From Pandoraea iniqua (GTDB lineage: Bacteria; Pseudomonadota; Gammaproteobacteria; Burkholderiales; Burkholderiaceae): DNA of 64,000 bases. Position 1 is the first letter of the stretch. Each line of letters opens with the position of its first letter. The DNA lies in NCBI RefSeq assembly GCF_902459685.1, contig NZ_CABPSF010000002.1, positions 1,116,001 through 1,180,000 of the forward strand, given 5' to 3'. Position numbers and translations under genes: made by a program. Shown here one piece after another: positions 8,917-19,065 of the stretch. The notes beneath the pieces were generated by a model. That model made no database searches and had not been told where the DNA came from. It saw nothing but the letters and a program-made list of their open reading frames with translations.

Positions 8917-10278
8917 ATGGCTAACGATACCGGGCGCACCCTGATTTACGCTTCCCGAAAGCACAACGACGGTCTGTTGTCGTTTTTGGGCGAGCAAGGC
9001 TGGCAAGTTGTGCCGGCCAAGAGCGCCAGCGACGTCGGTCGCATTCTCAATCCCGGGGTTACCAGCGCAGCACTCATCGACCTGGCGAGCGGTTATTCCG
9101 ATCGCGAGCTCGGCGCTTTCGAGTCCTGCATGCAGCCGGCGACCGTCGGCTGGGTTGCTGCCACGAATCCACAACAGCTCACGACGACGTCGGTGCGCCG
9201 GCTGATTCGCGACTATTGCTTCGACTACGTAAATGTTCCGTGCACGAACGATCAGCTCGCGCACTCGATCGGTCACGCCTGGGGCATGGCCTCGCTGTGC
9301 GAGGTGCCCGTCATCTTCACGCCGCAAGTCGGTGGCGACCAGGAAATGGTCGGCACCTGCGAGGCGATGCAACTGCTATTCCGCACCATCCGCAAAGTGG
9401 CCAACACCGACGCGCCAGTGTTTATTTCGGGCGAGTCGGGCACCGGCAAGGAACTGAGCGCGGTGGCGATTCACGAGCGCTCCTTGCGTGCCAAGGGGCC
9501 ATTCGTGGCGATCAATTGCGGCGCCATTCCGCCGCACCTGATGCAATCCGAACTGTTCGGCTACGAGCGCGGCGCTTTCACAGGGGCCAACGCCCGCAAG
9601 ATCGGCCGGGTGGAAGCGGCGAACGGCGGCACGCTGTTCCTCGATGAAATCGGTGACCTGCCGATCGAGAGTCAGGCGAGCCTGCTGCGCTTTCTGCAAC
9701 AGGGCGCCATCGAGCGACTCGGCGGCCACGATGTCATTCCGGTGAATGTGCGGGTGATGTCCGCGACGCACGTCGACCTCGAAGAAGCCGTGAAAGAAGG
9801 GCGCTTCCGCGTCGACCTGTATCACCGCCTGTGCGTGTTGCGCGTCGACGAACCGCCGCTGCGCGCGCGTGGTCAGGACATCGAAATTCTGGCCCATCAC
9901 GTGCTGCAACGTTTCAAAGGCGATAACCATCGCAAGATTCGCGGCTTCACGCAGTGTGCGGTGCAAGCCATGTATGAGTATCACTGGCCCGGCAATGTCC
10001 GTGAGCTCATCAACCGTGTTCGCCGTGCCATCGTGATGGCTGACAGCCGCATGATTTCGGCGAAAGATCTCGACCTGTTGCCGTGGGTGCCGACGCTGGT
10101 ACGCACGCTCGAAGAAATTCGTACGGAAGCCGAACGAATTGCCATCGAACAGGCCTTGTTGCGTCACTGCCATCGTCTGACCGACGTGGCGGCAGAGTTG
10201 GGAATTTCGCGTATTACGCTGTATCGACTGATGTGCCGATATGGATTGCGTGGTGATGAATCGGGCGTGCCGGCCTGA
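8917..10278 (+). CDS. Sigma-54 enhancer-binding regulator with VpsR-like N-terminus
   Basis: The 453-residue protein has three domains. Residues 1-130 look like a receiver fold that lacks the usual N-terminal acidic pair and the conserved lysine (Asp55 in ALIDLAS is the only plausible phospho-site). Residues 145-375 are the AAA+ domain with Walker A GESGTGKE (172-179), the sigma-54-contacting GAFTGA loop (219-224) and Walker B FLDEIGD. The C-terminus carries a Fis-type helix-turn-helix ([19 protein letters not shown]). The architecture resembles VpsR/BerB-type regulators of matrix genes, some of which bind c-di-GMP; that link is inference. A sigma-54 promoter lies 700 bp downstream ahead of the amyloid genes, the likely target. 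The ribosome site is AGGGAG upstream of ATG 8917. Confidence 0.88.
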
Positions 10279-10300
10279 TATCTTCTGGCGAAGAGAGGGC

Positions 10301-10337
10301 GGCCGTCCTGCGTTGAGCAGGGCGGTCGTTTCTTTTT
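10301..10337 (+). terminator. Rho-independent terminator of the bEBP gene
   Basis: The stem GCCGTCCTGC/GCAGGGCGGT with a GTTGA loop is followed by a T-rich tract (CGTTTCTTTTT). Confidence 0.8.
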
Positions 10338-10974
10338 GGGCTCCTGATTACTCCCGATTCCGCCTGATGATCGGCCCGTCTTGTGCACTATCTCCCCCCA
10401 AAAAAGCAGTGGTTTTCGACGCGTACTCGTCGTTCGCGAGCCTTGCCATCGCCAATAACGACGGGGCTTGCGGGCGACTCTGACGGCGCGCGCCGTCGTA
10501 CGCATTGCGTTGTCTCGAAGCGCGAGAGATTGTGCGGTGCAGTGCTGGTTCAACGTGACGTGAGCGATGTCATGGCGCGGTCACCTTGCCGTCATGTCGA
10601 GGGGTACGAAGTTTCAGCGGTTCGGGCACTACGGGTTGTCCCGCGAACACATCAAAGATGAAACATCCGGGGCGTCGGCAGGCCTCGCGTTGCCAAGCGC
10701 CGGGTGTGACGCTGCCATGTCGTTTGACGGGGAGAGGCCGATTCTGCCGCAAATCTGTCACGCAAGACCCTTGTGTATAGGGCATTTCCGAAAGACGTCG
10801 TTGACGACGCCGACATCCCTCGCGGTTCGGCATGTCTGCCGGCGACGCGGCAAGCGTGACAAAAGTGGCCGGAACCGCATGACGTATCAATGCTGAAACG
10901 TTTTCGGACACGGCGCCTGTCGCGCCCGCTGGCGAAAAATAAAAGTCTTCATGTTTTCAAGCACTTGAGCGTTG

Positions 10975-10990
10975 TGGCACGGAAGTCGCT
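10975..10990 (+). promoter_or_regulatory. Sigma-54 (RpoN) promoter of the amyloid-like operon
   Basis: TGGCACGGAAGTCGCT matches the -24/-12 consensus TGGCACG-N4-TTGCW at all but one defined base, with correct GG-N10-GC spacing. The predicted start is near 11001, just upstream of the AAGGAGG ribosome site (11005-11011) of the first gene. Confidence 0.8.
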
Positions 10991-11019
10991 TTATAGACTC
11001 GGGCAAGGAGGGCACAGCG

Positions 11020-11610
11020 ATGCGAATTCTCACCACCGAAATGCAATACCGAGTACGACAAGGCGCAGGCGCAATGGGCGCTGCCATCGTCGTGACGCTC
11101 GGTCTGTGCGCTGCACCGGCGCAGGCGCAGGAAGCGGCCCCCGCCCTGAGCGCCCCGCGCATGCAGATTGCAATGCTCACGGGTTCCATGGTGCCGCCGT
11201 CGGCCGCCGTGACGTCTGTGACGGCCATGATGACGGCAACGCCGATCAGCGACGCTGATGTGGCGGTGTCTGCCGGCCCGGTTACCGAACAAACTGCCGC
11301 GCAAGCCCCGGCCGATGAACCGGCCGCCATTGCCGCCAGTGACGACAGCAATACGAACAGCCACAACGATGCCGGACTGAGCAAGGTACCGCTTGCCGCA
11401 GCGCGCATCGACGACGAACAACTCGGCAACCAGCGCGGCCGCAATTTGCAGGGCGGCTCGATGGTCAAGTCACCCGGCATGACACTCGCGAATGGCGTGA
11501 CGCTGTGGGACGAACTGCCCGGCGCAGTGACGCCGACACCGCGTCCGCAGCAACTGTCGAACGGCGTGAACAACGTTCAGGTCACGCGTGTGACCTACAC
11601 CACCCGGTGA
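11020..11610 (+). CDS. Secreted LWDE-motif protein, first gene of the amyloid-like operon
   Basis: The 196-residue protein has a signal peptide ending APAQAQ (about residue 37), then a low-complexity Ala/Thr/Ser region expected to be disordered. A conserved-looking block follows: D132-x2-L135-x3-RGR (139-141), then MTLANGVTLWDE (154-165) and a Pro-rich tail. The start at 11020 is set by AAGGAGG 8 nt upstream and by the sigma-54 promoter. The same block recurs in the 133-residue protein at 17524-17925, so the two are paralogues. By position it corresponds to fapA, which in Pseudomonas modulates fibrillation, but I see no sequence proof of that. No family is recognised. Confidence 0.7.
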   Translation: MRILTTEMQYRVRQGAGAMGAAIVVTLGLCAAPAQAQEAAPALSAPRMQIAMLTGSMVPPSAAVTSVTAMMTATPISDADVAVSAGPVTEQTAAQAPADEPAAIAASDDSNTNSHNDAGLSKVPLAAARIDDEQLGNQRGRNLQGGSMVKSPGMTLANGVTLWDELPGAVTPTPRPQQLSNGVNNVQVTRVTYTTR

Positions 11611-11615
11611 ACGAC

Positions 11616-12128
11616 ATGATCAACACTTCAGCGATGCAGGCCGGCAACGTGATCGCCACGATGCTCATGGCAATTGCCCCGGCACTGCTTCCCGCCACCG
11701 CCCGGGCCGAACCGGCCCCGCCGGGAGACATCGTGATCGAGCGCAACATCGGGCCGGAGTACGTCGGACGGCAACTGCCGCGCGTCCAGAACCCGATTGG
11801 CATCTCGGTACCGGCTTTCCCGATGGGCCCGTTCAACACCGCGATGGGCGCCGTCAATCAAGTCACCGATGGTGAATTGACCGGCCGTGCTTCGGTGGGC
11901 TTGATCTCGGGTGCCGTGCAGTCGGGCATCAATCCGGTGATGGGTGTGCTGGTGGGCAATGCCCGCGGTGGCAACGCGTTGAATTCTTCGAACGGTGTCG
12001 GTGGCGGTTTTGCCGGCGGCTCGGGCGGTGGCGGCGGTATCGGCAGCATCGGCACGCTGGTGCCGTCGGTCATCAACTCGGCCCTGGCGCCGTTGACTAG
12101 CATGGGTGCTGCGGGAGTCGCCAAATGA
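11616..12128 (+). CDS. Secreted Gly-rich protein of unknown function
   Basis: The 170-residue protein has an N-terminal signal peptide (cleavage near TARAEP), a conserved-looking segment GDIVIERNIGPEYVGRQLPR, then a hydrophobic/Gly-rich half including GGGFAGGSGGGGGIGSIG. It starts 5 nt after the previous stop with no clear ribosome site, suggesting translational coupling; a second ATG at 11634 is possible. The stop overlaps the next start (ATGA at 12125). It has no counterpart among the Pseudomonas fapA-F products that I recognise. Its place between the LWDE protein and the repeat proteins suggests a fibre or export accessory role. Confidence 0.65.
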   Translation: MINTSAMQAGNVIATMLMAIAPALLPATARAEPAPPGDIVIERNIGPEYVGRQLPRVQNPIGISVPAFPMGPFNTAMGAVNQVTDGELTGRASVGLISGAVQSGINPVMGVLVGNARGGNALNSSNGVGGGFAGGSGGGGGIGSIGTLVPSVINSALAPLTSMGAAGVAK

Positions 12129-12781
12129 GCGCGTATCGCGACATTCGACGCCTGCACGGCGCACCGCTCAAGGTCGCCGTGGCCATGGTTCTCGCCGCCG
12201 GGTTTGCCGGGACGGCTTCTGCGGAAGACATCTACATCGTGAACGGCCAGCTCGCCGGCACGAGCGCAACCGTCGAAAGCGGCGTTGCGGTGGGCGTGAC
12301 CGGCGCACTGACCGTGAATCAGGCGGCCGGGCTGAACAACGCGCAAGCGAACAGCGCGCTGATCGCCAACGGTGGCAGCGTGACGCTCGGCACGTCGAGT
12401 ACCAATCAGGCAGCCGTCGTCACGAGCACGACAGGTGCCGCGAGCGCGGCAATTCAAGGCAACGCATTTTCAGGCACGTCCGGACTGGTGCAGGTGAACC
12501 AGGCGAGCGGTGCCGGCAATCTTCAACGCAACGCTACGGTCATTGTGATGGGCGATGCGGCTGGAGTGGCGAGCGTATCGGATACGGCACTATCCGCTGC
12601 GATCTCCAAGGGTGGCCCGGCTGGGCACGACAACCTCAACGATCAGTTCCGTACGGCATCGATTTCCGGTGACGCATTCCGGGGCGCGAGCGGGGTGGTG
12701 CAAGTGAACCAGTCGGCTGGGATAGGCAATGTAACCGCAAATGTTTTTGTGCTCCGTCCCCCGGCGGGCACAGCTTTTTAA
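12125..12781 (+). CDS. fapB: FapB-like minor amyloid subunit
   Basis: The 218-residue secreted protein has a signal peptide ending TASAED. It carries three imperfect repeats with the pattern VNQ-[AS]-[AS]-G-x2-N-x3-N near residues 62-82, 122-142 and 191-211 (for example VNQAAGLNNAQAN, VNQASGAGNLQRN, VNQSAGIGNVTAN). Asn/Gln/Gly-rich repeats of this type separated by linkers are the hallmark of Fap amyloid subunits. The start overlaps the preceding stop (ATGA). It lies just ahead of the larger repeat protein, the same order as fapB-fapC in Pseudomonas. In that system FapB is thought to nucleate fibres; the role here is inferred. Confidence 0.65.
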   Translation: MSAYRDIRRLHGAPLKVAVAMVLAAGFAGTASAEDIYIVNGQLAGTSATVESGVAVGVTGALTVNQAAGLNNAQANSALIANGGSVTLGTSSTNQAAVVTSTTGAASAAIQGNAFSGTSGLVQVNQASGAGNLQRNATVIVMGDAAGVASVSDTALSAAISKGGPAGHDNLNDQFRTASISGDAFRGASGVVQVNQSAGIGNVTANVFVLRPPAGTAF

Positions 12782-12811
12782 CTGGGTAACTCTCTCGTCA
12801 AGGAGATGGTC

Positions 12812-14191
12812 ATGAAAACGAAAGCAATTGCAGCGGCTGCACTGCTGGTAGCAACGGGTACCGCTATGGCGTCACCCAATCACCAGCAATATAGCTTCTC
12901 GTTCATCGGCAATGAAACCAACGTGCTCAACCTGGTCGGCATTTTCGGTCTGGTCGGCATTCGCGGCTGCGTCACGGTGGACAATACCGGCAACGCCGTC
13001 GTGCAAAGCAACCAGAGCGTAGACGTCCACCACGTGAACCTGAAGGGGCCGCTGCTTGGCAACTACACGACGGGTCACGTGACGTATGGCGTCGACGCGA
13101 AGACCACGACGGTTTCGGATCAGGGTAGCGCTTACCTGCTGGCAGGCAAGACCACCACCCACTACGACAACTCTACGTCGTGGGTGAATGCCAGCGCTAG
13201 CGGCCATCTGAATACGAACAGTTCGTTCCAGGCCGGTGCCGGTTATGTGGCAGGGCAGTCCAGCTCGGGTTCGGGTGGCTTCATCGCAGGCGGCGGGTAT
13301 CAATACTCGAACATCGCCGGCGGCGGAGGCATCATCGGTGGCGGCGTGCTGCCGTTGCCGGGCGGTCTGGCAATTTATGGCGGTTACCTCGTCGGCAACT
13401 TCGGCGCGGGTCAGGGTTCGGCTTGGGGCGGCTACGCCTACGGCCAGCAATCGCAGCAGGCTGCCGGGTTCCTGGCAGGCGGTTTCCTGAACACGCAGAA
13501 GAGCTTCGATGCCGCGTTTAATGCCGTCGTGAACCATGGCAACGCTTCAGTGGAGAGCGACTCGATCGCCGCCGGTGCGCTGTGGGGCTTCTCGAACACC
13601 TACACGGTGGCAACCACGTGGACCAAGGGCGCTATCACGTTCCATACCAACACCGCCGTCTATCAAACGATGGGTGCGACGCTGGGTGGTGGTGCACTGG
13701 CTAACGCCAACGGCAACATCGGTGTGAACGTGGCCGCAGGTGCCGACAACGCGCAGGCGAACAACGTCGCGATCGCTTCGCTCAACGCTCAGCCGGTGTA
13801 TGCCTCGGCTCAAGTGTTTGCGAACCAGTCGTCGAAGGGTTCGGCCAGCCTGTCGCAGTTCTATGTCACTTCGAGCGTGGGTGATGGTGCCCTCGCCGGT
13901 GCGACCGGGAACGTCGGCGTGAACGTGGCTTCGGGTATCGGCAACGTGCAGCAAAACGGTCTGGCTGCGGCAGTCTCGCAAGGGGCAACCGGCTGGTACA
14001 AGGGCGGCGCGGCCAACTCGACGGCTCAAACCGACCAAAAGGCTGGCATGAAGGCCTCGGGCGACTTCATCGCCAATGCTTCGCTGGGCGCAGGTGCACT
14101 CGCCTGGGCTAGCGGCAACATCGGCGTGAACGTGGCTTCGGGCATCGGCAACGTCCAGAGCAACAGCCTTGCCATCTCGGCAATCAAGTAA
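12812..14191 (+). CDS. fapC: FapC-like major amyloid subunit
   Basis: The 459-residue secreted protein has a signal peptide ending GTAMAS. Residues 25-290 form a Gly/Ser/Tyr-rich region with GGG and GGY runs. Three C-terminal repeats near 294-324, 359-389 and 428-459 share the core GN[IV]GVNVA[AS]G-x2-N-x-Q-x-N and are spaced 65 and 69 residues apart, closely resembling FapC repeats. It has one cysteine (in RGCVTV) and lacks the C-terminal CxxC described for Pseudomonas FapC. I start at 12812, with AAGGAGA 5 nt upstream; an ATG at 12806 overlaps that site. A strong terminator directly follows, fitting high expression of a structural subunit. Confidence 0.7.
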   Translation: MKTKAIAAAALLVATGTAMASPNHQQYSFSFIGNETNVLNLVGIFGLVGIRGCVTVDNTGNAVVQSNQSVDVHHVNLKGPLLGNYTTGHVTYGVDAKTTTVSDQGSAYLLAGKTTTHYDNSTSWVNASASGHLNTNSSFQAGAGYVAGQSSSGSGGFIAGGGYQYSNIAGGGGIIGGGVLPLPGGLAIYGGYLVGNFGAGQGSAWGGYAYGQQSQQAAGFLAGGFLNTQKSFDAAFNAVVNHGNASVESDSIAAGALWGFSNTYTVATTWTKGAITFHTNTAVYQTMGATLGGGALANANGNIGVNVAAGADNAQANNVAIASLNAQPVYASAQVFANQSSKGSASLSQFYVTSSVGDGALAGATGNVGVNVASGIGNVQQNGLAAAVSQGATGWYKGGAANSTAQTDQKAGMKASGDFIANASLGAGALAWASGNIGVNVASGIGNVQSNSLAISAIK

Positions 14192-14198
14192 GGTGTGC

Positions 14199-14232
14199 AA
14201 CCGGTCCGGGGTCTCCCCGGACCGGTTTTTTC
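14199..14232 (+). terminator. Intra-operon terminator after the major amyloid gene
   Basis: The stem AACCGGTCCGGGG/CCCCGGACCGGTT with a 3-nt loop is followed by TTTTTT. It separates the subunit genes from the peptidase gene 13 nt further on, so downstream expression must come from read-through or another promoter. Confidence 0.85.
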
Positions 14233-14244
14233 ATGAGGTGTGTC

Positions 14245-14955
14245 ATGAATGATGCGCGTCGTGCCGCAGTGAGGATCGCTACCGTTTGCGCTCTGGCGTG
14301 CGCAAGCGTGGCCGGGCACGCGCAGTATGCATCGGTGAACCTGGAGTCTTCGACTGGCGTACCGGCGGTCAAGACGATGCGTTCGTTCAAGTCGATGCAC
14401 TACGTGAATCTGGTCCAGCAGGAATACGACTTCAGTTGTGGTTCCGCAGCACTGGCAACACTGCTGCGCTACGGCTACGGGATCGATATCCCCGAGCCGG
14501 AAATGATTCAGAAGATGATGGTCTTCTCCAACCCGGACACCGTCATCAAGAATGGGTTCTCGATGCTCGACATGAAGAAATTCGTCGAGACGCTCGGGCT
14601 CGAGGGGCGAGGCTTCAAGGTGGACATCAACGCGCTGTATGACCTGAAGATCCCGGTCATCGCGCTCATCGATGTCAACGGGTATCAGCATTTCGTGCTC
14701 ATCAAGGCGGCCAGAGACGGGCGCATCTTCGTGTCCGACCCCGCGCTGGGCAACCGAATTATCGAGCAAGCCGATTTTGCCAAGCAGTGGAATGGCTTGG
14801 TCCTGGCGGTCATCGGCAAGCCGTTCCTGGAGGATTCTCCGCTACTCAAAGGAAACGAGTCCCTGGCGGTCAAGTTGCGCGACAGCGCCTTGACGACCGG
14901 GACGACAGCGACCCCGATGGTGGACTTCGGCATCATCCGGTCGAACCTGTTTTGA
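14245..14955 (+). CDS. fapD: FapD-like C39-family peptidase
   Basis: The 236-residue protein has a signal peptide ending GHAQ. It has a C39-type papain-like core: catalytic Cys65 in DFSCGSAAL, His149 in NGYQHFVLI and Asp165 in FVSDPALG. Unlike bacteriocin transporters it has no ATPase or membrane domain. This matches FapD, the periplasmic peptidase of the Fap secretion system. I start at 14245 with AGGTG just upstream; a start at 14233 inside the terminator T run is less likely. It lies directly after the amyloid subunit genes and 12 nt before the FapE-like gene. Confidence 0.8.
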   Translation: MNDARRAAVRIATVCALACASVAGHAQYASVNLESSTGVPAVKTMRSFKSMHYVNLVQQEYDFSCGSAALATLLRYGYGIDIPEPEMIQKMMVFSNPDTVIKNGFSMLDMKKFVETLGLEGRGFKVDINALYDLKIPVIALIDVNGYQHFVLIKAARDGRIFVSDPALGNRIIEQADFAKQWNGLVLAVIGKPFLEDSPLLKGNESLAVKLRDSALTTGTTATPMVDFGIIRSNLF

Positions 14956-14967
14956 GACCAGAACATC

Positions 14968-15735
14968 ATGAACCGTTACGTCCCGATGCTGGCCATCCCG
15001 TTCCTCGTAAGTGCCGTGCCGGCATTTGCGTCGAGCGTGGTGCCCGATAGCTGGCAGGCCGTCGGTGACGACGTGCTCGCACAAGCCACCGGCAAATACG
15101 CGCAGCAAAACATGATCACGGGCTTTCAGCTCGTGATGCAGTCGCAATGGCAAATGCCGACCGGTGCCAGCCTTGCGGCGACCGGCGTGCTCGGTGTGAG
15201 CCAGAACGCCAATCACACGGGTTATCAGGTCCAGACAGCTGCCGCCACCGGCATCATCCCCGGTCTGGTCAACGCAACGACGCCGATCACACAGGCTGCG
15301 GCGGGTGCCGCGAGCGTGCTGGTCAATGGTGTCGCACAGATCACGCAGGTGGCCGGCGACGCGAACAACGCGCTCAACAGGGCCACCATTCAGTACGCCC
15401 CGGGCGTCTCGCTGTCGATGCTGGTGCCGACCAGCGCGCAAGGGCAGAGCAACTCGCAAACCACCGTGGGCAACCTGAGCGCCAGTGTGGCGATCACCTC
15501 GGCGGGCATGCAAATTGCATTGAATACGCCCAACGGCAATCTCGGACAGAGCGTTGCCGGCGGTGCCGGTGGTGCGATGAATCAGATCATGCAGGTCGTA
15601 CAGGTCGCAGGCAACGCGCAGCAGGTGATGAACACGCTGCAATTGAATCTGCAAACGAATCCGCTCACGTCGAACGCCCTTCGACAGGTCGGCGTTCAGA
15701 ACGCAATGGCGAACATGGTCGCCGTGCGTCGCTGA
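14968..15735 (+). CDS. fapE: FapE-like secreted accessory protein
   Basis: The 255-residue protein has a signal peptide ending VPAFAS. The block following it, GDDVLAQATGK (33-43) then GFQLVMQSQWQ, is the signature I associate with FapE-type proteins. The remainder is Ala/Val/Gln/Asn-rich with VNG-x3-ITQVAGDANN and VVQVAGNAQQV repeats that loosely echo the amyloid repeats. In Pseudomonas FapE is a minor fibre component. Assignment rests mostly on position between the FapD-like and FapF-like genes and on this motif. It shares D-x2-L-x3-[RT]-[GA] with the two LWDE proteins of the locus. Confidence 0.6.
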   Translation: MNRYVPMLAIPFLVSAVPAFASSVVPDSWQAVGDDVLAQATGKYAQQNMITGFQLVMQSQWQMPTGASLAATGVLGVSQNANHTGYQVQTAAATGIIPGLVNATTPITQAAAGAASVLVNGVAQITQVAGDANNALNRATIQYAPGVSLSMLVPTSAQGQSNSQTTVGNLSASVAITSAGMQIALNTPNGNLGQSVAGGAGGAMNQIMQVVQVAGNAQQVMNTLQLNLQTNPLTSNALRQVGVQNAMANMVAVRR

Positions 15736-15760
15736 ACAAGCAGGTGGCTCTCGTCGGCAC

Positions 15761-15798
15761 CGTAACGTTACGCATCTCGGACATTACGTAACGTTACG
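15761..15798. repeat. Paired palindromes CGTAACGTTACG
   Basis: Two identical 12-bp palindromes have centres 26 bp apart. With flanks they form one larger inverted repeat (CCGTAACGTTACG ... CGTAACGTTACGG). I infer a double operator or activator site. Confidence 0.7.
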
Positions 15799-15872
15799 GC
15801 GGCAACGAGAAGCCGGCAGCGCCCGGGGCAGGTCGCGGGCGCCATGATAACCAAGGGGCAACGCCGCATGAA

Positions 15873-15911
15873 AGTCGATGCAGGCAGTCGATGCAGGCAG
15901 TCGATGCCGGC
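15873..15911 (+). repeat. Three tandem 13-bp repeats (AGTCGATGCAGGC)
   Basis: Copies lie at 15873-15885, 15886-15898 and 15899-15911; the third has one change (GCCGGC). A degenerate fourth copy may follow. Confidence 0.75.
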
Positions 15912-16130
15912 AACCGATGCTGAACCGCGATCGCTGCGGGGCGGATCGGTCGGCGAGCGTGGCGAACAAGAGGGTGACGTCGTCAGGGTTCGCAAGAACG
16001 CAAAACCACCTGCACGCGTCGCTCCGCAGTCGAGCAGCAAGGACAACCGTCGTTTGGAAACACGTGTTTGTTGGATTGCGCGCGGCATGTCGTCGCGAGG
16101 CGCTCGCCGCACTTTTACCCGGGGGGGATC

Positions 16131-17462
16131 ATGAAGACTCACCGTTTTTTTCCCGTTGCCGCCATTACTTGGGGTGTACTGCTTTTCACGCTATCGGCCC
16201 AGGCTCAGGAGCATACGGACCCATCGCCGGATAACCGTCTCCAGATGTTGATGGACATGGTTGACCGGCAGCAGCGGGAAATTTCTTCTCTGAAGCAACG
16301 CCTGACCGACATCGAGATGGCGCAACGTGGTCGCGGGCTCACCGCCTGGGACACTGCGCAGATCGCGCAAGTCTCGCCCGGTGACGGCTCCGCCGCCGGC
16401 TCGGCGGGTACGCCGGGCGGTGGCGCGGCGGGCGCAGCTGGCCCGACGTCCGCCACGCCGATCGGCGAAACGCAGCAGATGCAAAAGAGCACGAGCGACT
16501 CGCAACGCACGCCGGCGGAAGAGGCGGTGGTGCAGGCGCAGCACGCACCGCTCTTCGATCGCAAGCTCACCATCGACGCCGGTATCAGCTACAGCTACTA
16601 CGATCGCCGGCAACTCGTGCTGAGCGGCTTTCTCGCGCTCGATGCCATCTTTCTCGGTCAGTTGAATCTCGGCGAAACCAAAGCTAACGTGTGGACGTTC
16701 GACGTCAACACGCGCTACGGGATCAACGACCGGCTGAGCGTGGCGTTCGACGTGCCGTACCTGTATCGCAACTCCGACTTTATTTCGGGCGGGGTGGGTG
16801 GCGCGTCATCGGCGATCAGCGATATCAGCAAGAACTCGGCGAACATCGGCGACGTGAACGCGTCGTTGTATTACCAGATCGTCAAGGAATCGCAGAACTG
16901 GCCCGACATCGTCGCGTCGTTGCGTGTGACCGCGCCGACCGGTACGTCGCCGTTCGGCATCAAGCTCGGCACGCCCGACCCGACCAACAACAACCTGACC
17001 ACGCCGTCGCGGCTGCCCACGGGTAACGGCATCTGGGCGTTCACGGCCGGGTTGTCGTTCCTGCGCACCTACGATCCGATCGTGTTGTTCGCGAACGTGG
17101 CTTACACCTACAACGTGGCCCGCACGTTCGACGACATCTCGACCATCGAAGGCACGACCACGCCGGCGAAGGTCAAGCTCGGCGACATCGTGCAGGTGGG
17201 CGCCGGGATGGCGTTGGCGCTCAACGATAAGACGGCCCTGTCGATTTCGTACTCGACGGCCATCTCGCGCGCCACGAAGACGGCGACGCCGGGCGGGCCC
17301 TACACCACGGTGGCGGGCAGCACGACCAACGCGGCGTCGCTCAACTTCGGTATCAACTACGCGATCGACAAGCACTGGACGGTCAACGGTTACGTCAACG
17401 CCGGGATGTCGCCGGACGCACCGAACTACGTGATCGGGGTGCGCTTCCCGTACACGTTCTGA
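16131..17462 (+). CDS. fapF: FapF-like outer-membrane amyloid exporter
   Basis: The 443-residue protein has a signal peptide ending SAQAQE and an N-terminal coiled coil (about 34-66, NRLQMLMDMVDRQQREISSL). An Ala/Gly linker follows to about residue 142, then an outer-membrane beta-barrel with alternating aromatic strands and a C-terminal phenylalanine (VRFPYTF) suited to BAM assembly. A helical plug/coiled coil before a barrel is the architecture of FapF, the trimeric channel that exports Fap subunits. I start at 16131, where a GGGGGGGA tract precedes the ATG. A gap of 395 bases separates it from fapE, unlike the continuous Pseudomonas operon. It ends in a strong terminator. Confidence 0.78.
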   Translation: MKTHRFFPVAAITWGVLLFTLSAQAQEHTDPSPDNRLQMLMDMVDRQQREISSLKQRLTDIEMAQRGRGLTAWDTAQIAQVSPGDGSAAGSAGTPGGGAAGAAGPTSATPIGETQQMQKSTSDSQRTPAEEAVVQAQHAPLFDRKLTIDAGISYSYYDRRQLVLSGFLALDAIFLGQLNLGETKANVWTFDVNTRYGINDRLSVAFDVPYLYRNSDFISGGVGGASSAISDISKNSANIGDVNASLYYQIVKESQNWPDIVASLRVTAPTGTSPFGIKLGTPDPTNNNLTTPSRLPTGNGIWAFTAGLSFLRTYDPIVLFANVAYTYNVARTFDDISTIEGTTTPAKVKLGDIVQVGAGMALALNDKTALSISYSTAISRATKTATPGGPYTTVAGSTTNAASLNFGINYAIDKHWTVNGYVNAGMSPDAPNYVIGVRFPYTF

Positions 17463-17467
17463 TGATG

Positions 17468-17502
17468 AAAAAAAGCCCGGCCGAGGTTGGCCGGGCTGTT
17501 TT
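17468..17502 (+). terminator. Rho-independent terminator after the fapF-like gene
   Basis: AGCCCGGCC/GGCCGGGCT with a 6-nt loop is preceded by an A run and followed by GTTTTG. It lies between convergent genes and probably serves both. Confidence 0.85.
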
Positions 17503-17523
17503 GCCGGTGACGGTGTGAAGCGC

Positions 17524-17925
17524 TCAGCGTGGCATGCGTGACGATGTGGCGCTGATATTCAGGCTGGTTTTTTGCAGATTATTTTGCGCACTGGCAACGA
17601 TGGTGCGTGGCAGATTCGACGTCGATGCCTGCGTGGGTTTCGGCGACGGGACGGGTGGAATCACTTCGTCCCACAGGCGCACGTTGTTCGCCGTTGTCAT
17701 GGTCGCGTTGACTGGGGCAATCGCCGAAGCGGCGCCGCCGGACACGTTGGACACGACAAGGGTGCGTTGAGCGTTGGTCGCGCGAGTGCTGTTGAGCAAA
17801 GCATCGCTCACCGCGATCGGCACGGCGCCAACGTCCAGCGAGTCGGCATAAGCCGGTGCGGTGAAGCACGCAGCGGCCACGCAAAACATGGCAGTGCGCG
17901 TCTTGCTGACGAAGATGTGTGACAT
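17524..17925 (-). CDS. Secreted LWDE-motif protein, paralogue of the first operon gene
   Basis: The 133-residue protein has a signal peptide ending APAYAD. Its mature part carries SDALLNSTRA (D41-x2-L44-x3-R48) and MTTANNVRLWDE (76-87) followed by a Pro-rich stretch. These align with the 196-residue protein at 11020-11610 (MTLANGVTLWDE), showing common descent. It is transcribed toward the fapF-like gene from its own promoter. Function is unknown. A secreted partner, chaperone or competitor of the fibre subunits is an inference from location. Confidence is higher that it is a real gene than for any role. Confidence 0.7.
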   Translation of the reverse strand: MSHIFVSKTRTAMFCVAAACFTAPAYADSLDVGAVPIAVSDALLNSTRATNAQRTLVVSNVSGGAASAIAPVNATMTTANNVRLWDEVIPPVPSPKPTQASTSNLPRTIVASAQNNLQKTSLNISATSSRMPR

Positions 17926-18339
17926 GGCGTGCCCCCCGGCCTCCGCATGCTGTTCTCGCGATATTGGCTGTATTTTATTGCGCGTTTACAGAAAGGAAAG
18001 GGGAAAAAAGTAATAGCTTGCTTTCGTTTGTTTGAGTAATTAATTTACGCAAATTGCGTTTTGTCGCGCAAAGGCAACATCGATGGGCGTCACAGGTCCG
18101 CTGGCTCGCCGTTACGCGGGCTTCACGCATAAACTGCTCGGACAACGAGGTGACGCCTGACACGTAAAACCGGATCACAAAAGACTGAAGACTTCTTCGG
18201 TTTTTTGCTGGCGGCGCGGCCGGAAAGCGGGGCCGCAGTCCGTAGAAAACATGACAAAACGGCGGGCGTCACAAAATTAGCGGTAAACGGGAAGTGGGGA
18301 ACGGCGGCGCAGAGGCCGACCGGATCGACAGGGGAAACC
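17926..18339. other. Divergent spacer between LWDE paralogue and LuxR-type regulator
   Basis: This 414-base, locally AT-richer stretch has A/T tracts near 17960-18060. A TAAAAT-like -10 can be read on the minus strand near 17971-17976. There is a short GAAGA/TCTTC hairpin followed by T residues near 18188-18206. No gene is supported. Confidence 0.45.
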
Positions 18340-19065
18340 ATGCGTGTGCTGGTCGTGGGTGAGGCTGCCACCTGGCTGAGCGGCCTGCAAGTCGCGTTGC
18401 AAACCGAGGCGAACGCGACGCCACCAGTACTGCGTCACGTGGACGATGTCACGGGACAGGACTGGCTTTGGCTGCGCGAACTGCCGTCGCGGCGTGCGCT
18501 CGTGCTCGACGAGTCGATTGCACGCACACCCGCCGTCGACACCTTGTGCGCGGTGGCGAGCGAATGCACGCCGCCGGTGCCGGTGATCGTCGTCGGCGAT
18601 GCGGGTTTTCCCGATGAAATCATTCGCTGGCTACAGGCCGGCGTGACGGCGTGCCTGCCATGGCCGAACTCGCTCGCGCGGATTCGTTCGGTCTTCGATA
18701 TGGCCTTCTCGGGTGGCCGTTACGTGCCCGAAGAGGCGCTTTCGGCGTTGCTCGTGCTGTGGCGTCAGGAGGCGCTGGGCGAAGCGCTGCCCCTCTCGCG
18801 CATGCCCGTGTTTCCGCTCGGCGGCGATAAGGCGACGCAGTTGGCCGAGTCCGCGCTGCTGGGCATCTCGCAGCGTCAGTACGAAATTCTCGCGCTTTTG
18901 TCGCGTGGGTTATCGATCAAGACCATCTGTCAGCAACTGGTGATCTCCGAAGGCACCGCCAAGACGCATGTCTCTGCCCTGTACCGGCGGCTCGGTGCAC
19001 GCAATCGCGGCGAGGCCATCTACATCGCGGCACAGCGCGGCGCGCGGCATCTCTTCGAGACGTGA
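18340..19065 (+). CDS. LuxR/FixJ-type regulator with degenerate receiver
   Basis: The 241-residue protein has a receiver-like N-terminus (1-125). It begins MRVLVVGEAATWL, so the acidic pair that normally binds magnesium after the first strand is missing; only Asp57 in LVLDES could be phosphorylated, and the conserved lysine is not apparent. The C-terminal LuxR helix-turn-helix (about 178-235) is intact: SQRQYEILALLSRGLSIKTICQQL...EGTAKTHVSALYRRL. It probably regulates without a classical kinase, perhaps through another ligand, as VpsT/CsgD-type regulators do. It flanks the amyloid locus, so control of that locus is a natural guess. The start follows AGGGGAAA. Confidence 0.75.
   Translation: MRVLVVGEAATWLSGLQVALQTEANATPPVLRHVDDVTGQDWLWLRELPSRRALVLDESIARTPAVDTLCAVASECTPPVPVIVVGDAGFPDEIIRWLQAGVTACLPWPNSLARIRSVFDMAFSGGRYVPEEALSALLVLWRQEALGEALPLSRMPVFPLGGDKATQLAESALLGISQRQYEILALLSRGLSIKTICQQLVISEGTAKTHVSALYRRLGARNRGEAIYIAAQRGARHLFET

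Follow-up and report, generated by a model that had tools for sequence, protein, structure and literature searches.

The fap locus of Pandoraea iniqua, at positions 8,917 to 19,065 of the window (the whole stretch of DNA analysed: 64,000 nucleotides of contig NZ_CABPSF010000002.1, assembly GCF_902459685.1), is a complete operon of a Burkholderiaceae sub-type of Fap, a known kind of amyloid-fibre system. Two of its products, FapE and a protein that we call LWDE1, share a leader-like motif, and we favour, with modest confidence, the reading that FapD, the C39 peptidase of the locus, cuts both proteins there. In the excerpts available, published accounts state that the FapD cysteine is required for secretion, that the target of FapD is unclear and that the Fap proteins lack a canonical C39 sequence (PMC5557850). 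The FapD substrate is yet to be determined according to PMC6173800; FapD is also thought to process the FapE N-terminus and FapF (PMC12822426), and a double glycine in FapF has been pointed to (PMC5135000). Two of the published findings fit a FapD cut at the motif, namely the need for the FapD cysteine and the absence of N-terminal FapE peptides from mass spectra (PMC5557850). For each Fap lineage examined, the motif would point to a candidate FapE site at the level of single residues. Neither it nor the LWDE protein is named in the available excerpts of the open-licence Fap literature (PMC5557850, PMC6173800, PMC12822426, PMC5135000, PMC3684753, PMC10638192, PMC6173795, PMC10233263). The elements directly concerned are:

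11020..11610, + strand: LWDE1, directly before fapA; no Pfam or NCBIfam family.
11407..11442, + strand: LWDE1 residues 130-141, IDDEQLGNQRGR, predicted to be recognised or cleaved by FapD.
14245..14955, + strand: fapD, C39 peptidase (NCBIfam FapD; Pfam Peptidase_C39, 2.3e-25).
14968..15735, + strand: fapE (NCBIfam FapE).
15061..15096, + strand: FapE residues 32-43, VGDDVLAQATGK, predicted as a FapD motif (motif conservation; helix 34-41 in the model).

The FapE motif mostly reads [VLI]-x-D-x-[VE]-[LM]-A-x-[QAML]-[TR]-G-[KR] and is present in all 72 non-redundant FapE sequences (sets were made non-redundant by k-mer clustering); a first pattern matched 71 of them and was then widened. LWDE1 carries [LI]-D-D-x-x-L-x-x-Q-R-G-[GR] in 66 of 66 non-redundant sequences. 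When set against the consensus of Gly-Gly peptide leaders, LSXXELXXIXGG (PMC6181422), the motif fits at positions -12, -7 and -2, and partly at -8 and -4. Glycine at -2 is invariant in both proteins (72/72 and 66/66). Position -4 is mostly Gln (50/72 FapE, 63/66 LWDE1), and position -8 is Val in 50 and Glu in 19 of the 72 FapE and mixed in LWDE1, which at -1 has Gly 44, Arg 16, Thr 5 and Ser 1 times. FapE proteins that score above the NCBIfam FapE cut-off, and are 'Pseudomonas-like' by that score, have LKDQELAQLRGK, LKDAEMAELRGR or close variants. Among 23 FapE places the motif was found at 19 and, in another frame, at three more; the product at the fourth, L093, looks like FapB. Two loci left out of the synteny counts, L181 and L187, also have the FapE motif (as L081 and L090). 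In the AlphaFold model of FapE, which is weak, a short helix (residues 34-41) stands between an unstructured N-terminus and strands that start at residue 48, with a predicted local distance difference test (pLDDT) of about 60 there and a mean of 53.4.

A strict leader pattern run on single sequences was not selective (17/72 FapE, 30/67 FapA, 0/66 LWDE1), and we therefore compared profiles. The full-length FapE and LWDE1 profiles align exactly on the motif (E 7.3e-5), against 47 of 48 control comparisons at 0.0044 or weaker. We included the small proteins encoded before and after fapD (sysA and sysB, respectively) in a second fapD/fapF system of Burkholderiaceae (loci L057-L067, described below). 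FapE with sysB (6.8e-5) and sysA with sysB (6.9e-6) both align on the motif. When the FapE profile was built from 20 sequences of loci free of LWDE genes, the match to sysB stayed at 1.3e-5, whereas that to sysA was 0.12 and aligned elsewhere. The link between FapE and sysB is thus robust. FapE and FapA, at 0.016, also align on the FapE motif. FapA has a conserved LxDx[DE][LFI] segment, VTDGELTGRASV in P. iniqua, in which the Asp is invariant (44/44 rows) and the Gly is not; the helix part of the motif thus has a wider distribution than its glycine. The FapA segment resembles a leader helix and could be a FapD binder.

The fate of LWDE1 where fap has been lost provides a natural test of the FapD site. 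A search of 200 genomes of the family gave LWDE1 matches in 80, of which 24 lack a full FapF; G037 (locus L068) keeps a FapF fragment only. We analysed 13 of the 24 genomes (L197-L209) and L068, leaving L203 uncounted for an in-frame stop in the LWDE frame; the absence of fapD in L197-L209 was judged from gene maps. The leader is present in 88 of 88 distinct LWDE1-type sequences beside fapD and in one of 13 without fapD, which keep VTLWDE. Relatives of the genes flanking the fap-bearing locus L110 (323, 166 and 456 aa) recur in 13, 12 and 12, respectively, of the 13 stretches that lack fap, and a sigma-54 activator maps in each of them, so these stretches occupy the same chromosomal place. Such joint loss of leader and fapD is the outcome expected if LWDE1 holds a FapD site. 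The fap-less loci L197-L209, which are Burkholderia-like, can be described as old fap sites at which a shortened LWDE gene and the sigma-54 activator remain.

The same genomes allow an unlikely but serious alternative, that LWDE1 lies outside fibre biogenesis in a small regulon of the sigma-54 activator, its synteny with fap being incidental. They retain the activator and the LWDE gene between the same neighbours, and 10 of the 65 fap-bearing genomes of the family give no LWDE1 match. Against this, LWDE1 immediately precedes fapA in 78 of the 80 named loci (the best 80, Pandoraea being the closest, of at least 547 confirmed relatives found in a locus scan of genome contigs), which is 78 of 78 where it is present, and it has lost its leader in 12 of 13 copies without fapD. 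The two named loci without LWDE1, L114 and L172, are both cut by contig ends.

Several observations weigh against a FapD cut at the shared motif. Position -1 is Lys or Arg in all 72 FapE, not Gly, Ala or Ser. The comparison of FapE with FapB, a control, reaches 1.3e-5, elsewhere in FapE. Those of FapE with sysA (0.011) and of LWDE1 with sysA (0.03) and sysB (0.18) align on the motif but fall within the control range. With the FapE of LWDE-free loci, the match to LWDE1 drops to 0.0033, near the control range if still on the motif; the link between FapE and LWDE1 is thus carried in part by FapE of the same operons. The presence of part of the motif in FapA, in 30 of 67 sequences by the strict pattern, may mean that it is not diagnostic of cleavage. 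The one LWDE1 without fapD that keeps its leader is that of L068, a decayed fap locus. The LWDE genes of fap-less genomes have dN/dS values of 0.38-0.83 (21 pairs of 7 genes), and their products, which are few and related, may be weakly constrained. Finally, a second dipeptide (GG, GA or GS) is conserved in the middle of FapE (44/53 rows), and the roughly 70 N-terminal residues from which no FapE peptides were seen in mass spectra, in the part of PMC5557850 available, exceed what a cut near residue 40 would account for.

These last two points suit the view that the FapD cut falls in the GG/GA linker halfway along FapE (as suggested in PMC5557850), in FapF, or in both, with the N-terminal motif as a docking helix, as the LxDxEL segment of FapA without an invariant Gly might suggest, and LWDE1 as an unrelated passenger. 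We find this doubtful. Columns 153-289, ahead of the mid-protein dipeptide, contain none of the 30 most conserved FapE columns listed. The N-terminal motif has Gly at -2 throughout, turns up again in LWDE1 and is missing from 12 of 13 LWDE1 copies without fapD. A role of FapF as a universal FapD site did not hold: its candidate segment is off-register in Burkholderiaceae and was not seen in the Pseudomonas-like FapF listed. That segment, LTDIEMAQRGRG, is nearly invariant at E62 and R66-G69 (at least 90%) in an alignment of 10 rows, although the row taken from the PDB does not extend over it.

If FapD does cut FapE and LWDE1 at the shared motif, the system might work as follows. The VpsR-type activator would act on one sigma-54 promoter to give an LWDE1-fapABCDE transcript, with fapF about 400 nt downstream of this unit. 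FapB and FapC would be exported through FapF and polymerise into fibres, and FapD would cut after [LIV]-x-D-x-x-L-x-x-[Q/M/L]-[R/T]-G-[K/R/G], producing a mature FapE and an LWDE peptide of about 55 residues that could act with the fibre or the export gate. A wider proposal, which we put forward as speculation that will probably need revision, is that FapD acts in the periplasm as a maturase of the 'double-glycine' kind and serves several clients exported by Sec. The LWDE peptide of Burkholderiaceae would then gate or cap export, the cut of FapE at RG-[K/R] would make FapD essential for secretion in all Fap systems, and FapA, with its degenerate version of the motif, might be a pseudosubstrate.

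The other features of the locus are:

8917..10278, + strand: sigma-54-dependent activator (bacterial enhancer-binding protein) with N-terminal VpsR domain, candidate fap activator (Pfam Sigma54_activat 1.5e-67, VpsR 6.4e-22, HTH_8).
10975..10989, + strand: sigma-54 (-24/-12) promoter-like site TGGCACGGAAGTCGC; the start codon of LWDE1 follows after 30 nt.
11607..12128, + strand: fapA (start GTG 11607 or ATG 11616; NCBIfam FapA), with the LxDxEL half of the motif only.
12125..12781, + strand: fapB, minor subunit/nucleator (NCBIfam FapB).
12812..14191, + strand: fapC, major amyloid subunit with three C-terminal repeats and a long N-terminal region (NCBIfam FapC, PDB FapC, Foldseek).
13055..13654, + strand: Gly/Ser-rich FapC residues 82-281, predicted disordered (pLDDT <50).
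14199..14227, + strand: 13-pair hairpin followed by a run of T in the fapC-fapD gap; may be a partial terminator.
16131..17462, + strand: fapF, outer-membrane barrel and N-terminal helical region (NCBIfam FapF, PDB 5o65).
16302..16337, + strand: conserved LTDIEMAQRGRG near the end of the FapF N-terminal helical region; possible off-register FapD site.
17524..17925, - strand: LWDE2, an LWDE paralogue with a degenerate leader (motif Gly mostly lost).
18340..19065, + strand: LuxR-type (GerE) regulator (Pfam GerE 9.1e-13).

The first-pass annotation, made from the sequence alone, had proposed a variant Fap locus in which the genes at 12125, 12812, 14245, 14968 and 16131 are fapB, C, D, E and F. 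The NCBIfam scan of the window's products bears this out, and the open frames lie where they had been placed (8917-19065). All six genes, fapA to fapF, are present in the canonical order. The products score 33 bits for FapA (E 5.9e-8; curated cut-off 110), 88 for FapB (7.1e-25; 190), 61 for FapC (1.4e-16; 195), 197 for FapD (1.7e-58; 330), 56 for FapE (3.2e-15; 250) and 370 for FapF (1.8e-110; 700). The FapC and FapF values are those of the hidden Markov model search of the 12812 and 16131 products that had been named as the check on the proposal, and they do not refute it. None of the six reaches its NCBIfam equivalog cut-off, which is a threshold for giving names and not a defining feature of Fap; the solved FapF and FapC also match. 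Other parts of the proposal fared differently. The 'extra Gly-rich protein' is an ordinary fapA, because NCBIfam names it FapA (E 5.9e-8) within the canonical order, and the sigma-54 activator is a common neighbour of fap rather than a distinguishing addition. The LWDE protein, the second LWDE and the LuxR-type regulator do stand as additions. The composition does form a recognisable sub-type, without the Gly-rich protein and the activator among its distinguishing additions.

Published work places Fap in Burkholderia and describes frequent loss of fapA and a separated fapF (PMC3792158); Pandoraea sp. is counted among the lung-infection species that encode Fap (PMC6173800). The canonical synteny, fapABCDEF or fapBCDEF, holds in more than 90% of 1602 clusters (PMC12822426). 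The system described here is thus of a known kind, and we infer that it forms extracellular fibres. A FapF relative at E 1e-30 occurs in 95 of the 200 family genomes, 65 of them below 1e-100, including 22 of the genus of P. iniqua (its own genome among these). Since the FapF gene occurs in 21 of the 22 other genomes listed for the genus, with 93-98% identity in 19 of the 21 and 68-69% in two, the presence of the locus is more than chance; the gene was not found in the remaining one, G010 (1.2 Mb). A silent or decayed locus, from which this strain would form no fibre, is very improbable: the NCBIfam scores under the cut-offs would suit that, but all frames are open, the promoter-like site is conserved and FapF is kept in the genus at the identities just given. 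FapB was counted in 71 of the 80 named loci, some FapB scoring better as FapC. The gene maps cover 136 loci, with genes called by a purpose-made codon-usage caller. One of them, L179, from a genome of the same class and a different family, has two tandem fapB-C-D-E sets.

LWDE1 is a new component of Burkholderiaceae Fap operons, unnamed in the family libraries used, and adds a seventh to the six Fap proteins. The Pfam and NCBIfam scan gave no family for it, and its relatives in L110 and L112 gave sub-threshold chance matches or none. Judged by eye, it consists of a signal peptide, a variable region, the leader-like motif and a conserved C-terminal part of about 55 aa with VTLWDE-PxPxP. Its invariant columns are L135, Q138, G140, V160-E165, P172, P176, Q187 and Y193 (26 sequences); the leader ends 19-27 residues before LWDE, and the C-terminus lies 31-35 residues from the LWDE start. 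In a draw of 274 genomes of the class, the only LWDE1 match is P. iniqua's own. The additions after fapF are narrower. The LuxR-type gene occurs in 16 of the 80 named loci, exactly the 16 of Pandoraea, and LWDE2 in 15, all of Pandoraea; in the other LWDE1-bearing Burkholderiaceae maps, a second sigma-54 activator takes the LuxR position. Only two of 20 distinct LWDE2 sequences have the leader motif. In the LWDE2 of the listed Pandoraea loci the leader Gly has become Ala (RAT, RAA or HAA); two divergent same-genus genomes, L034 and L035, keep HGT or RGT.

The three repeats predicted in FapC are present at about residues 301-317, 366-382 and 435-451, and their positions are largely invariant in 33 sequences. 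Residues 266-456 match the fibril chain 9u4u of the PDB, and residues 271-456 match 9nqd; the AlphaFold model, which is weak (mean pLDDT 50.0, below 50 over residues 82-281), also matches 9u4u (Foldseek E 3.4e-6). FapC has 368-527 aa in the 101 Burkholderiaceae loci with an LWDE gene (the shortest, 368 aa in L152, may reflect a start-call error) and 259-279 aa in the five without. Because long FapC (504 and 550 aa) also occurs without LWDE1 outside these loci, in L182 and L183, we regard this as a lineage correlation. FapD matches C39 peptidases of the PDB (PCAT1, a 'Double Glycine Motif Protease' and the ComA peptidase), and the expected catalytic residues C65, H149 and D165, with Q59, are among the positions kept by the two FapD groups alike (28 and 11 sequences). 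FapF of Fap systems is expected to combine a coiled coil with a 12-strand barrel. Here the barrel, residues 143-443, matches PDB FapF 5o65 (E 4.1e-77), and a putative N-terminal coiled coil was judged by eye.

The activator combines a VpsR domain, an AAA+ domain and a Fis-type helix-turn-helix. An activator gene is found in 79 of the 80 named loci, and outside Burkholderiaceae one adjoins fap in 12 of the 14 loci that could be read. The VpsR domain was detected in six of eight activators scanned, including two of four from outside Burkholderiaceae (of the two misses, L174 is a short gene call). Upstream of 91 of 101 LWDE1 genes lies a sigma-54-like (-24/-12) site scoring at least 9 of 11, compared with 66 of 1,033 control upstream windows; since the loci share ancestry, this is conservation and not 91 independent events. 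The neighbouring activator may drive this promoter, which would make them a candidate regulatory pair beside an operon without encoded regulators according to the excerpt available of PMC6173800.

The proposed split of the locus by a terminator and a separate region before fapF holds in part. The hairpin after fapC is present; yet the region has 10 hairpin-plus-T-run sites against a shuffle mean of 11.0, and in relatives a stable hairpin is no commoner at this place (61 of 78) than downstream of control genes (558 of 681), so that we rejected it as a conserved feature. The gap before fapF is also present, and a fapF set apart from the other genes has been published as a deviation (PMC3792158). 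Between fapE and fapF, positions 15749-15810 hold a 24-nt inverted repeat with two GTAACGTTAC palindromes, which is hardly kept in other Pandoraea; as a conserved operator it was rejected, with a single copy, in L094, among the 16 named Pandoraea loci. A short repeat with 13-base spacing, AGTCGATGCAGGC, occupies 15873-15920, upstream of fapF. A search of the region for sigma-70 promoters found none, and the Rfam search gave no match.

Compared with Pseudomonas Fap, the P. iniqua locus has the same six genes in order, the three FapC repeats, the C39 residues and a barrel of the FapF family; it differs in LWDE1 before fapA, the long N-terminal region of FapC, the gap before fapF and the scores below the cut-offs. 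An adjacent sigma-54 activator is common to the Pseudomonas-like loci, a label inferred from FapE scores. The loci of Burkholderia, Paraburkholderia, Trinickia and Pararobbsia share LWDE1-fapABCDEF, the sigma-54-like promoter and an activator alongside. Their maps show a divergent activator upstream and a second one after fapF, in contrast with the single co-directional upstream activator, LWDE2 and LuxR-type gene of Pandoraea.

With C39 double-glycine leader systems (PCAT1, ComA, class II microcins), the locus shares the peptidase and leader positions -12, -7 and -2. It differs from them in that FapD, periplasmic in Pseudomonas, is not fused to an ATP-binding cassette (ABC) transporter (PMC5557850), that the putative substrates are Sec-exported and that FapE has Lys or Arg at -1. 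The FapD residues that differ between the two fapD systems revealed no clear acidic pocket for such a side chain. Pairs of fapD and fapF are known from five further phyla (PMC6173800); a second FapF was not found in the P. iniqua genome at E 1e-3. The second Burkholderiaceae system, in 11 loci (L057-L067), has the compact order of a small protein A (sysA), a FapD-like protein, a FapE-like protein B (sysB) and a FapF-like protein. A, B and FapF carry RGG or RGA leader-like motifs, the RGG of B at the motif-aligned place, and A has one IQN-rich segment faintly like the FapB repeat (hhalign E 0.002 and 0.0044 in two comparisons). It shares with the P. iniqua locus homologues of FapD and FapF (about 30% FapF identity) and a FapE-like protein with RGG, and differs in having no FapB or FapC match among its mapped genes and a GG/GA leader also on its FapF.

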